Program-made: the position numbers and the translations under genes
Source of the DNA: Sclerodactyla briareus
Lineage: Eukaryota > Echinodermata > Holothuroidea > Dendrochirotida > Sclerodactylidae
DNA: 64,000 nucleotides
Direction of reading: 5' to 3'
Assembly (NCBI GenBank): GCA_026419785.1
Contig: JAODTK010004621.1
Coordinates: 1-64,000 of the forward strand
Shown here: positions 1,811 to 61,260 of the stretch, piece by piece
Layout of the letters: the number at the start of each line of letters is the position of its first letter
Position numbering within the stretch: the first letter of the stretch is position 1
Notes under the pieces: model-generated
Seen by the model: the letters and a program-made list of their open reading frames with translations, nothing else
Databases searched by the model: none
Told to the model about the DNA's origin: nothing

Positions 1811-42618
<40,808 letters not shown>

Positions 42619-42649: not shown

Positions 42650-43980
42650 AATAGAGCCAATGGAAAGGCCTTGTGTACGTGTATGTGAGGTTGCAGTAGT
42701 GCCTTGCACACGTGGCTCAGACGTGAGGCATACCATACCATACAGAATAACTGATACGATGTTTGGCATGTATTGTACAGTACGTGGCAGTACTGACGCA
42801 GTGCTCGCGGGTTTCGCGGGGAGCGCAGTCCGTTTGCTCTCCCTAGGAATCCAGGAGAGCATGTGCCCGGAGGTATTTTTAAGGACTGACGTGAGTCGCG
42901 TGGGTAAATCAAAATCAAGGAGCGCGATCGCGCTGGCGCTCCTTATAACGCAAGCCCTGTTTTTTGCTCAATATGCGTTCCATGAAGGCTTTCTCTGTTC
43001 ATCATGTTGTTAGGCCTGTGTTTCGGCGATCAAAAAACGGCCCCATTTGAGTTGGAAAAATTGGATTTCGATCGGAATTTCTGCAATTTTTATGTGAAGT
43101 AGAATGACAAGAACAAAATATCAAGATTTGGTGGCAATACACCCACAAATGAGTGGAATATCGTGATTATTCTGGCTTGCTCCGTTGACCCGTAACACAA
43201 AGTGCCCCATTTAGGCTATATGAAAACTGAAAAGAGTTTCGCACGTTATTATGGCCAATTTTCAGGCTAATTATTTATTATCGGTTTATTTCTAGGAATT
43301 TCACTATAATACCTCTCGATTGGTAATCTTATAAGTTTTCTTCTTTGAAGTATTCGACGAACAGGCTTCTAGTATCAGCAAATTCAGGTGAAAACATCGT
43401 GGGATTTCAGTCAATCAGAACGAGCTGTAAATCTGTACTCCCCAGCTCAAACTGTTCGCAGCTTTTTCATTTACAACTAGTTGCGGGCTGTTGTGTAAAA
43501 TCAGCACAGAAATTTTATGAGCTTTCATAAGAAAAAATATAGAGTGTAGGTTGCAGCGTTATGGAGACCGAATTCCAGGAAGATTTTTTTTTTAAATTGC
43601 TGGTTTTCCAAGGTTTCATGTTTTTCACACAGAAAGGAAAATTTCATATAAAACTCAGACGACCGCAAGGGGATAAGATACTAAAATAGCAAACGGCAAG
43701 TGGGATTAGTGTGCCACTTGCCAGTTTCTGGGTGATTCAGGATTTTCTCGTGACCAAGAGGCATTTTTAGGCAATTTTCTGAGAAAAATGAGGTAATTTC
43801 AAATGCAACAAACCTCGGAGGGAATTTTCAGTTTTGTTTGAAAAAATTTCATGCAAATTAACTTCCGAAAAACTTCATAACAAATGAAAGCTTATTCATG
43901 TCCTTTTCAAATGGAACATGTTGCCACTCTGTGGGACTTGGAGTGCCAGAAGTGAGTCACTCTGGAAATATTTGGTTGGC
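42650..43980. other. Intergenic, upstream of the NSMAF promoter
   Basis: CpG-containing up to about 42.95 kb, then AT-rich single-copy-looking DNA. No gene or repeat was recognised. Confidence 0.4.
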
Positions 43981-44019
43981 CAATTCTGAGCAATGCAAAT
44001 TGCGGTGGCAGCAAGGGTT

Positions 44020-44985
44020 TTTATTCATAAGGTCAGTTTGTCATTAGGCCTTTTATTCATAAGGCCTTTTGTTCATAAGGCCCGTTATTCATAATGGCCG
44101 GGGAAAGGGACGTTCGTATTCATAAGGTCGATTTCATAATTCACAAACAGAAGGTCCGATATTCATAATAGTAAAACGGTCCGTTATTCATAATAGGAAA
44201 AAAGGTCCGTTATTCATAATAGGAAAAAAGGTCCGTTATTCATAATAGGAAAAAAAAGGTCCGTTATTCATAATAGGAAAAAAGGTCCGTTATTCATAAT
44301 AGGAAAAAGGGTCCGATAATTCATAATGAGAGAGAAGGTCCGTATTATACTTTGGGAAATCCCCCCAAGGTAAGTTATTCATAACGGGGAAAAGGGTCCC
44401 GTAAGTCATTCATGATACGAAAACAATGACCGGTCGTGGATATGCCAGGGGGGAAAGAGAGATGACAAAAAGTGCAGTTTTAGGGTTTTGCCTCCGTGCC
44501 GGAAAACTCAGCATAGGTAAAATAATATCTGCAAGTATATCATTGAAAAGAAACACATTATGAATAACGGACCTTTTTTGCGATTATGAATAACGGACCT
44601 CTTTTGCTGTTATGATAACGGACCCTTTTCACTATTAGGAATAACGGGCCTTTTCTGCGATTATGAATAACGGACCTCGTTTGCTATTATGAATAACGGT
44701 CCCCTTTCGCTTTTATGAATTACGGACCCTTTTCGCCATTATGAATATCGGACTTTTTACTATTATGAATATCGGACCTTTGTGCTCTGTTATGAATAAC
44801 AGACCCTTTTGATAATTATTAAAAACGGGCCTCTTTGGTCATTATAGAAGATCGACCCATATGACACAGACCCCTTCTTATTATGAATAATTGGCTTTTT
44901 TTTTTGGTCAATTAGGAATAAACGACCCTTTTTTCCGCCAATGGTGCACGTTATACTAACGGGCCTTATATGAACCAGGCCTTAT
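44020..44985. mobile_element. Fold-back (TU-like) element with arms of short tandem repeats
   Basis: The left arm (44020-44400) holds about 13 copies of a ~27-29-base unit, AGGTCCGTTATTCATAATAG plus GAAAAA; five units at 44178-44310 are nearly identical. The right arm (44556-44985) holds about 15 more diverged copies in reverse complement (ATTATGAATAACGGACCTTTT). A 150-base unrelated spacer separates the arms. Outermost units use AAGGCC on both sides (TTCATAAGGCC left, GGCCTTATATGAA right). This is the plan of sea-urchin TU fold-back transposons. No protein is encoded and the target duplication was not found. Confidence 0.75.
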
Positions 44986-44999
44986 AATAGAAAAAGAAC

Positions 45000-46500
45000 A
45001 ATTTGAATACTCGGGCAGTCCCCGATGGGGTTAACACATTACTGAGAGGTCGATCAAACCAAATTCCAATCTTACGGACATGTGAGAGACGTCCAGATGA
45101 ATTCGGTTCAAGCGGTTGAAGGATTTAATTGGCGACTAACGCCTTAAGTTTCCGACAGCGGCGGCGGAAAACAGCGACAGCCGCGGCGGCGGCACGTGAC
45201 CCCCACGACAAAGCTATGACCCTCCCCCCCCCCCCCAGTGGGAAATCGGCCCAACTTCTGACAATTTGATCACCAAACATCACCCTTCTCAGGCAAATTC
45301 AGCGCCGCAGCGCCCTTCACTCTCGCAAGCTGTAATCATACCTTCCCGAAGGGGGAGAAAAATAAAGATGTTAGTCCTGCCATATCGCCATCAATTTGAA
45401 AGAAAATTTGAGAATGTCCTTATGAGTAGCCTATCATAACAGCCGCGATTGTGTCCAATATGTGTCAAATATTCCAGCTGACCGTGTTGTGAAGAATTAC
45501 GGTATTGGATCACATTGCCGAGATGAATCAGCGTTACAACACAGATGCATGCAGGCCCGTAAATATATTGCAATCTTCGCCCCTTCTTTGCCGATTTCTT
45601 GGAATACCAAACCATGGAAGGATTCGACACAGCCTACAAAGCCACAAAGAAGACCCAGTGCAAGTGGCCGCGCTACGAGGGGGCATGGGGGATAGGTTGC
45701 CCCCCAGACTTCAGTCTCGCTGGGATTCACGCGCCCCTCCCCTAACGCCAGTTTCGAGAATGACTAGAGAGAATTGAGTTAAAAAAACCCAAAATTTGTT
45801 TGGGACACATTGAGAATAATCGGTAATCCCAGGTGAGGTTCGTTTTGTATGTTTGTATTATTGTAAATTTGCTGATACTATATTGCCATTAAAATGCACC
45901 AATTCCAAATGGGAATCTTAGGCCATGAAAAGCTCAAGACCGAGAAGCTCCCGGAAGTGAGATCCAAGCCAACTAGGGGGTCCGGGGGTCATGCCCCCCC
46001 CCCTCCCCAACTTTTGGGTAGACTCCACATACATGATGATTTTTCCACACACAAAATGTTTCACATGACTGCTTCGAACACCCCCCACCCCTCCCCGAAA
46101 TTGCTCTCGACCCCCCCCCCCCCACTTTCAAACAGTGGCTGAAACTTGCCAAACTTGCCAAAATTCCTACCAGTAGCATCGCCGCATGCGAAAGGAGTTT
46201 TGCAACTCGAAAACTCGAAAGTACTTTCCATCGAGAGTCACCGTGTTGAGAAGTTCAATTGGACTTGTTCATGGACAAATTTGCGAACGGGCACAATAAC
46301 AGAATAATAGTTTTATTTGATCTGAACAGTGTTCAACTTGGTAGAATAGAATTAACGCTCACATCGACATGTCCTCCAGAGTGTGGTAACTCCAGATATG
46401 AAGCGGTACGTGGTGATTGCTTTCAAACTGTTTCAACACTTAGCTTCACGCGTGGTTGGTACACTGTAAACGAGGGAGGATCCAAACGAAGATATAAATT
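45000..46500. other. Intergenic, no gene recognised
   Basis: Contains C tracts (45225, 46000, 46112), a GCGGCGGCGG patch at 45155-45190 and a GGGGGTCCGGGGGTCATGCC block at 45975 of the kind found at transposon ends. The frames of 70-100 codons match nothing. Confidence 0.4.
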
Positions 46501-47639: not shown

Positions 47640-49141
47640 CAGGGGCGGCGCCAGGGTTTTGCAATAGGGGGGGGGGTCGAAACTTGTTGCTTTAATATCT
47701 AAGAAGAGCGCCACCACAGGTTGGCGCGGAGCGTACCAGAAAAATTTTTGCCGTCTGAAGCTCCCAGATGACAGGAGATCGCCTCTCTGGGCCGTTTAAT
47801 CGACACTGAAAATATCTTTAAGTAGGCTTTTTTGTCCTGTCATTTTGTATATTGGGTATTTTTATTGAAATTTTCCTCACTTTATGATGGAGAGGGATGT
47901 TCACGACGACCAGCATCGACCGCATAACAGTAACTGATAGCATACCCCCCCCCCCCCCCCAAAAAAAAATGATCGTGAACGGAGGCCTTCAGTAAAGTGC
48001 GCCTATTGCGGCGAGGACGTAAGATTGTACTGAACTTTGTACTGCCGATTGTTGGACTAAAAACCGCTGGAGTAAATATGCAGACTGGGGTGGCCGGAAT
48101 GCGTCCCTCAGCCGAATACTGATGAACGCCTTCCTTTGAAGTCGACAGCCCCAAACAGTACAAAGTAAGATATGGTGGTCTACAATCGGGGTTAAAGATA
48201 AATTGACGAAAGGAAACACCGGACACGCGTGCGAAAGGGCGCGTAAATTGTGTTTTTCTTAACTTACATAAGTGTTAGAAACTATCACCAAAACATTTTT
48301 TTTCACCAGAATTTGATTGGGGGAACGTGACTCCCCATCTTTGAAGGTTGTTCGAATCCGACAAACTTGACTTTCGGTACAAGTAGATTCATGCATGGAA
48401 TTTCGGATGAAATGCAATTTGATGTAGAAACACACAACCACGCGCGCGAAGGGCGCGAAAATGTTTGAGTTTTGATTTACCTAAGTGTTAAAAACTATCA
48501 CCACAACATTTTTTTTTTTTTGACAAGGATTTGATTGGGGAAACGTGCCCCCCCCATCTTTTTTAAATTTGTTGGAATCCGACCAACTTGATTTTCGGTA
48601 CAAGTAGATTCATGCGGGCATATAATCGGATGAAATGAAAATTGATGTAGAAAACACAACGACGCGCGTGAAGCTCGCGAAAATTTTTTTGGGTTTTGAT
48701 TTACCTAAGTGTTAAGAACTATCACCACAACATTTTTTTTTTTTGACAAGGATTTGATTGGGGAAACGTGCCCCCCCCCCATCTTTGAAGAGTTGTTGGA
48801 ATCCGACAAACTTGGTTCTCGGTACAAGTAAATCCATGAGTGGCATATAATCGGATGAAATGAAAATTGATGATTTAATTTACACAAGAGTTAAATACTA
48901 TCACCACAACATTTTTTTTTTTTGACAAGGATTTGATTGGGGGAACGTGCGCCCCCCCCCCCCTCCTTGTTCGAATCCGACAAACTTGATAGTAGTAGTA
49001 GTACATTAATAAAAGACACCTCCACCCACCCCCTACGGAAATAATTGCGTTAAAACATCGTTCAAACGATTTTATTTTTTCGGCCCAAAACCCATAGGGG
49101 GGGCAAACCGCCCCCCTTGCCCCCCTGTGGCGCCGCCCCTG
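47640..49141. mobile_element. Non-autonomous hAT element, ~1.5 kb
   Basis: The terminal inverted repeats are CAGGGGCGGCGCCA (left) and TGGCGCCGCCCCTG (right), followed by G-rich and C-rich subterminal tracts. The flanks GGTTTGCC and GGTTGCCT look like an 8-bp target duplication with one base lost, which is the hAT size. The left subterminal GAGCGCCACCACAGGTTGGC and GCGGAGCGTA recur next to the left terminus of the hAT element at 54201, so both probably belong to one family. It carries no transposase; its right half is filled by the tandem repeats at 48250-48985. Confidence 0.8.
48250..48985. repeat. Tandem repeat of ~200-220-bp units inside the hAT element
   Basis: Three full copies and one short one of TTACCTAAGTGTTAAGAACT-ATCACCACAACATTTTTTTT-GACAAGGATTTGATTGGGG-AACGTGCCCCCC-ATCCGACAAACTTG-CGGTACAAGTA-TCGGATGAAATG, starting near 48262, 48476, 48700 and 48885. 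The T and C tracts vary in length. The first copy is the most diverged. Confidence 0.85.
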
Positions 49142-60999: not shown

Positions 61000-61079
61000 T
61001 CCCCAAGGTGGCCGCCGATTTTATTTTCGAGTTTTAATACAACTACTGCGTGCCCATCAAATGGTGACGATGGAAGTAG

Positions 61080-61128
<49 letters not shown>

Positions 61129-61260
61129 ATATATATATATATATATAGATATAATATATATAGGCTATGTCATTCGTTACTCATTTGATGGTCAGCGCAG
61201 TAGTTTAGTAATTACGTATTAAAACTCGAAAATAAAATCGGCGGCCACCTTGGAAAATGT
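61000..61260. repeat. Inverted repeat around (TA)n
   Basis: The left arm (61005-61070: CCAAGGTGGCCGCCGATTTT-ATTTTCGAGTTTTAATAC-AACTACTGCG-CATCAAATGG) is repeated in reverse complement at 61172-61255. The two arms flank (TA)n at 61081-61165. The right arm has an extra ~14 bases (GTAATTACTAA-like). A third piece of the arm (ACCGATTTTAATACGTAATT) lies at 61287-61306. Confidence 0.85.

Follow-up and report, generated by a model that had tools for sequence, protein, structure and literature searches.

Foldback elements with arms of tandem repeats

In sea-urchin TU elements and Drosophila FB elements, short direct repeats make up long inverted arms. Judged by the parts of their descriptions used here, Tm1, Tetris and Galileo are closer precedents than the sea-urchin TU elements for the locus presented below. 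Tm1 is described as a Mutator/Phantom-type foldback family of root-knot nematodes (PMC3169594). Galileo is a member of the P superfamily in Drosophila (PMC3688188, PMC3573991, PMC4168063), and the ends of Galileo F are reported to carry different repeat numbers (PMC3573991). For Galileo-G, the THAP domain of the transposase was reported to bind sites within the first two of the four repeats of the long ends. The authors propose that many sites provide specificity, and they write that the same is untested for Foldback and Phantom repeats (PMC3688188). Tetris is a foldback element of Drosophila virilis, for which two alleles were described that differ by one repeat, one of them having gained it through duplication (PMC4079207).

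In the window, which is the whole 64-kb stretch of DNA that was analysed, we found a noncoding stretch of 979 bases (44013-44991) in which a single short unit type forms two arrays that face each other. Its features are as follows.

44013 to 44424, plus strand: left arm, 17 units (hand cut, unbroken in the window, and TRF)
44013 to 44092, plus strand: outer end of the left arm, where the period is 16 bp (L1-L4 plus the opening 16 bases of L5)
44151 to 44343, plus strand: regular 26-bp portion of the left arm (consensus from TRF: AAGGTCCGTTATTCATAATAGGAAAA)
44177 to 44307, plus strand: near-identical left units L9-L13 (n = 5, hand cut)
44425 to 44553, no strand: spacer or loop, 129 nt between the hand-cut arms
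44554 to 44991, minus strand: right arm, 18 units (hand cut and TRF)

Units, core and predicted hairpin

The arms were cut into units by hand, and the joined pieces matched the window without a break. An automatic core finder returned no more than 9 sites in the left arm and 4 in the right, probably owing to its handling of overlaps, and the hand cut was used instead. In total 35 units were obtained from both arms, worn units included. In the left arm, L1-L4 and L6 measured 16-19 bp and L8-L14 measured 25-28 bp, with L15-L17 at the inner end being worn. In the right arm, R10-R18 measured 24-27 bp and the outer units were worn and uneven, R2 and R6 being 16 bp long and R1 an 8-bp remnant. The period was 26 bp inside (24-28 bp across L8-L14 and R9-R18) and 16 bp in L1-L4. 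These outermost left units, together with the start of L5, were of the AAGGCC..TTATTCAT type, which is the core without the linker.

TRF detected the same periods, with 26-bp arrays at 44151-44343 (7.3 copies, 89% matches) and 44557-44836 (10.8 copies, 75% matches) and a 16-bp array at 44019-44099 (5.0 copies, 75% matches). The 19-mer GGTCCGTTATTCATAATAG, with at most 3 mismatches, occurred 16 times in the 64-kb window and exclusively within 44079-44805. Seven of these occurrences were on the plus strand in the left arm and nine on the minus strand in the right arm, as compared to a mean of 0.01 in 100 shuffles. The element is therefore a single copy within the window. It has no coding capacity, its longest stop-free stretch being 63 codons, and no recognisable feature was seen in the spacer at 44425-44553.

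The first-pass annotation had placed a fold-back element at 44020-44985, which was close and is corrected to 44013-44991 by the hand cut, with the exact ends of the element being ill defined. It had also described two arrays of about 13 and 15 units; the two arrays were found and the counts become 17 and 18, the earlier ones being lower probably because the hand cut includes worn units. Its unit of 27-29 bases and its spacer of 150 bases gave way to the values above. The layout of facing arms of tandem units was borne out by the TRF arrays, by the strand split of the 19-mer and by a local alignment of arm against arm, which scored 317, whereas none of 50 single-base shuffles of the right arm scored above 57. 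The longest ungapped arm-to-arm pair was 96 nt long with 83% complementarity.

Confirmation of the very long hairpin that had been predicted is limited to computed folds. For 44015-44990, the RNA fold had an energy of -394.7 kcal/mol against a shuffle mean of -233.7 (sd 5.5, n = 20; z -29.1), and the DNA fold an energy of -214 kcal/mol (20 shuffles, z -18.6). In the ViennaRNA fold of 44013-44991, 267 of the 355 predicted pairs joined arm to arm, the outermost being 44053-44990 and the innermost 44416-44557. Flipping the right arm to direct orientation changed the computed energy of this stretch from -395.1 to -229.4, a cost of 166 kcal/mol.

The units share a conserved core, GGTCCGTTATTCATAAT, with a faster-changing linker. 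In R10-R17 the core was steadier than the linker, as departures from the commonest base were found at 10 of 136 core cells (17 columns) and at 18 of 72 linker cells (9 columns) in the hand alignment, in which units were recognised by their core (Fisher p 0.001; column permutation p 0.004). With gap cells excluded (1 core, 2 linker) the counts were 9/135 and 16/70 (p 0.0013). R9, with an odd linker length, and R18, which runs into the spacer, were omitted from the test. In the alignment of 34 units (R1 omitted), the steadiest columns were GG and the AT of TTCAT (32-33 of 34), followed by single C and T positions of the core (30 of 34), a steadiness that is partly circular because the units were recognised by that core; the R10-R17 contrast is less so. 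The third linker base was G in all five of L9-L13 and C in six of the eight units R10-R17, which indicates arm-specific linkers on one core. Inside the core, a short dyad, TTATTCATAA (TTAT-TC-ATAA), was recognised by eye.

Arm history, flanks and sequence context

Mean identity was 0.94 among L9-L13, 0.87 among L8-L14 and 0.78 among R10-R18, in agreement with the earlier observation that one arm is the more homogeneous. Between the arms it was 0.68 (L8-L14 against R10-R18), and the inner part of each arm is therefore closer to itself than to the other arm. The left centre looks like the most recently renewed part. Taken together, the first-pass interpretation is partly supported, in that it was right about the foldback layout, the predicted hairpin and the greater homogeneity of one arm.

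Support for a mirrored order of the units in the two arms was mixed. With all right units permuted freely, the double-centred unit-chain score of the real order was reached by 7 of 2000 permutations and the raw score by 49 of 2000. When R1-R9 and R10-R18 were permuted separately within their classes, 118 and 338 of 2000 reached the two chain scores, and the mirrored order within the classes was not significant. In the base-level global alignment, the real order was equalled or exceeded by 512 of 2000 permutations in which all right units were shuffled, by 1791 of 2000 in which only R1-R9 changed places, and by 1810 of 2000 in which only R10-R18 did. As an account of the arms, colinear inverted duplication alone had no support in the base-level alignment. 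Four reciprocal best cross-arm pairs fitted one mirrored order, namely L4-R2 (0.72), L5-R3 (0.71), L8-R10 (0.85) and L14-R12 (0.73), and two violated it, L2-R6 (0.72) and L16-R9 (tied, 0.71). L8-R10 was the sole strong cross-arm unit match. In our reading, the order of the classes, short outside and long inside, is common to both arms, and the order within the classes has mostly been lost through turnover.

The flanks beyond the arms were compared over 100, 300 and 800 bases, and their inverted similarity was within the range of 100 shuffles each. As no inverted similarity was found outside them, we read the arms as the termini of the element. All left ends at 43980-44061 were paired with all right starts at 44955-45024, and no pair had an exact direct repeat of 8 bp. 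One exact 7-mer pair near the ends was situated inside the arms; an exact 7-mer was also present in 29% of 300 random boxes of the same size. With one mismatch, there were 7 pairs of 8 bp, 4 of 9 bp and 2 of 10 bp, all of them inside the arms. A target-site duplication may have been erased in an old copy.

Additionally, relatives were searched for in sequence collections and in the literature. Patterns of two adjoining units gave 0 matches in viral_contigs and 0 in genome_contigs, and the phage and plasmid records gave no match; because these collections are viral and prokaryotic, such absence says little about a eukaryotic family. A looser pattern matched 9 viral and 31 prokaryotic stretches. 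When the element was compared to these 40 loci with blastn, two (L031 and L039) gave E 0.01 or better over 42-59 bases. The 19-mer with at most 4 mismatches was found in 7 of the 40 (L003, L008, L018, L021, L034 twice, L038 and L040). Enrichment of both kinds of match is expected, as the loci were picked by the pattern. Inverted arms were absent from the short stretches inspected of four loci (L030, L031, L034 and L039). On the basis of blastn of all 40 and the inspected parts of four, the loci were judged to be chance matches. Three literal unit strings gave one match in the literature, in a metabolic engineering paper, which is presumably also due to chance.

Two of these loci contain repeats of their own. 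In L030, a contig titled as a Ruminococcaceae MAG, positions 6033-6267 hold a short-period direct repeat with TTATTCATAA and 6 pattern matches, and no inverted arms were seen in the 401 bases inspected. In L039, a contig titled as a Desulfomonile tiedjei MAG, a 16-bp unit, TTATTCATAAGAAGTG, is repeated directly about four times at positions 1117-1174. This unit looks like the outer 16-bp units of the element, and the 501 bases inspected had no inverted arms.

The longest stop-to-stop frame in the 64-kb window was 191 codons. Pfam profiles were run against 40 of the 203 stop-free frames of at least 70 aa; none reached the curated cut-off (best E 0.069), and no transposase-bearing partner was seen among these frames. 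No tRNA was found in the window with bacterial settings, and no Rfam family reached the gathering score there.

The window holds several other tandem and dispersed repeats. Taken with the modest length of the longest frame and the 40 scanned frames without a Pfam match at cut-off, they suggest that the DNA is probably from a eukaryote. A palindromic short element at 61003-61253, with perfect 38-bp inverted ends (CCAAGGTGGCCGCC...), resembles a small MITE; it is 83% self-complementary over 266 aligned columns, and its loop contains a TA-rich microsatellite about 80 bases long. TRF also detected a tandem array of a 173-bp unit at 25836-27269 (8.3 copies, also readable as a 344-bp two-unit period) and one of a 224-bp unit at 48264-48872 (2.8 copies, 86% matches). 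A dispersed repeat pair in opposite orientation, at 17060-17418 and 28415-28750, was 74% identical over 372 aligned columns, and portions of it recur at 1093-1323.

Origin of the element and comparison with known systems

Long inverted repeats of short tandem units, by which foldback elements are recognised, are present at this locus, and their terminal position is suggested by the lack of inverted similarity in the flanks. We consider the element to be probably an old copy of a foldback-type DNA transposon, non-autonomous and presumably mobile in the past. The two arms would then be the long terminal inverted repeats of the transposon. Each arm would have grown through tandem amplification of a short unit, perhaps with the 16-bp form arising first and surviving towards the outer ends, and the 26-bp form with its added linker following. 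The core GGTCCGTTATTCATAAT would most likely be bound by the transposase of an autonomous partner, and many such sites per end may help the transposase to find the two ends and bring them together. Afterwards the arms would have evolved separately, and a recent local expansion, by slippage or unequal exchange, would have renewed the centre of the left arm. Renewal of one arm would be explained by local repeat changes like those described for Galileo F and Tetris (PMC3573991, PMC4079207).

A local minisatellite might also have been inverted in place, by template switching or partial inverted duplication, and never have moved, its arms having diverged through unit turnover. Such a history fits a single copy in the window and ends with no 8-bp target-site duplication found near them, and neither the base-level alignment nor the order within classes favours a mirrored arrangement. 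However, short units lie outside and long ones inside, as would be the case for element ends, with the chain score reached by just 7 of the 2000 free permutations, and a core that is steadier than its linker is not predicted by plain array turnover. We regard inversion in place as unlikely.

The predicted RNA fold is highly stable (z -29.1, with the 267 arm-to-arm pairs), as would be expected of a transcribed long hairpin that gives rise to small RNAs and is retained for that role. Any inverted array of such units would fold likewise, though, and the Rfam search of the window speaks against this role as well, which makes it highly improbable. An inverted layout is also what a read folded back on itself during library preparation or assembly typically yields. 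Such an artefact predicts near-identical arms and mirrored flanks, whereas complementarity is only 83% in the longest ungapped pairing of the arms, the inner units of the two arms average 0.68 identity and inverted similarity in the flanks does not exceed that of shuffles. The arms are too diverged for this explanation, and it was rejected as hardly credible.

The transposon reading can be carried further, to a foldback family with dense arrays of a 16-17-bp transposase-binding core and a replaceable linker, renewed per arm, in which the core would be held by selection during transposition. This extension is tentative and, in our judgement, rather doubtful. If true, it would turn the proposal that transposase binds to Foldback and Phantom repeats into a directly testable idea, and the steady core beside a changing linker offers a concrete candidate binding site. 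If mobility is confirmed, the element adds one more family to the foldback class; otherwise it is just another worn repeat.

Among the published systems, as far as their accounts go, Tm1 is the nearest structural match. One described Tm1 element is 1080 bp long, its inverted ends consist mostly of a short tandem unit, the unit number is unequal between the two ends of one element, and gene-less, MITE-like members occur (PMC3169594). Its units, of 13-15 bp as compared to 16 bp in the outer units here, are better conserved at their 5' end, which is comparable to the core and linker described above (PMC3169594). However, the two ends of Tm1 average 93% identity and carry end motifs, whereas the arms here are far more diverged. 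Its target-site duplications are mostly of 9 bp (8-10 bp in 45 of 53 complete elements), and none was found here (PMC3169594). Compared by eye only, the Motif C unit given for Tm1 (CGATTCAGTATCCGC; PMC3169594) was not matched by the unit here (AAGGTCCGTTATTCATAATAG..). Assigning our element to the Mutator/Phantom type, which is marked by a MULE transposase in an autonomous partner and by duplications of about 9 bp, would be only a guess from published precedents.

Galileo likewise has long inverted ends. Some of them contain internal tandem repeats, and the repeat number is unequal between the ends of one copy (PMC3573991, PMC4168063). The repeats measure about 210 bp in D. mojavensis F and 140 bp in one D. 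willistoni copy, as compared to 16-26 bp here, and the Galileo transposase is known, whereas none was seen here. Tetris is similar in being apparently non-autonomous, with modular inverted ends and locally expanding tandem repeats, and differs in its 220-bp repeats, which also form satellite arrays, and in its target-site duplications of 8-10 bp (PMC4079207). The architecture, unequal arms included, is thus of a kind already known from the published descriptions of Galileo, Tetris and, above all, nematode Tm1, and what is new here is at most the family.
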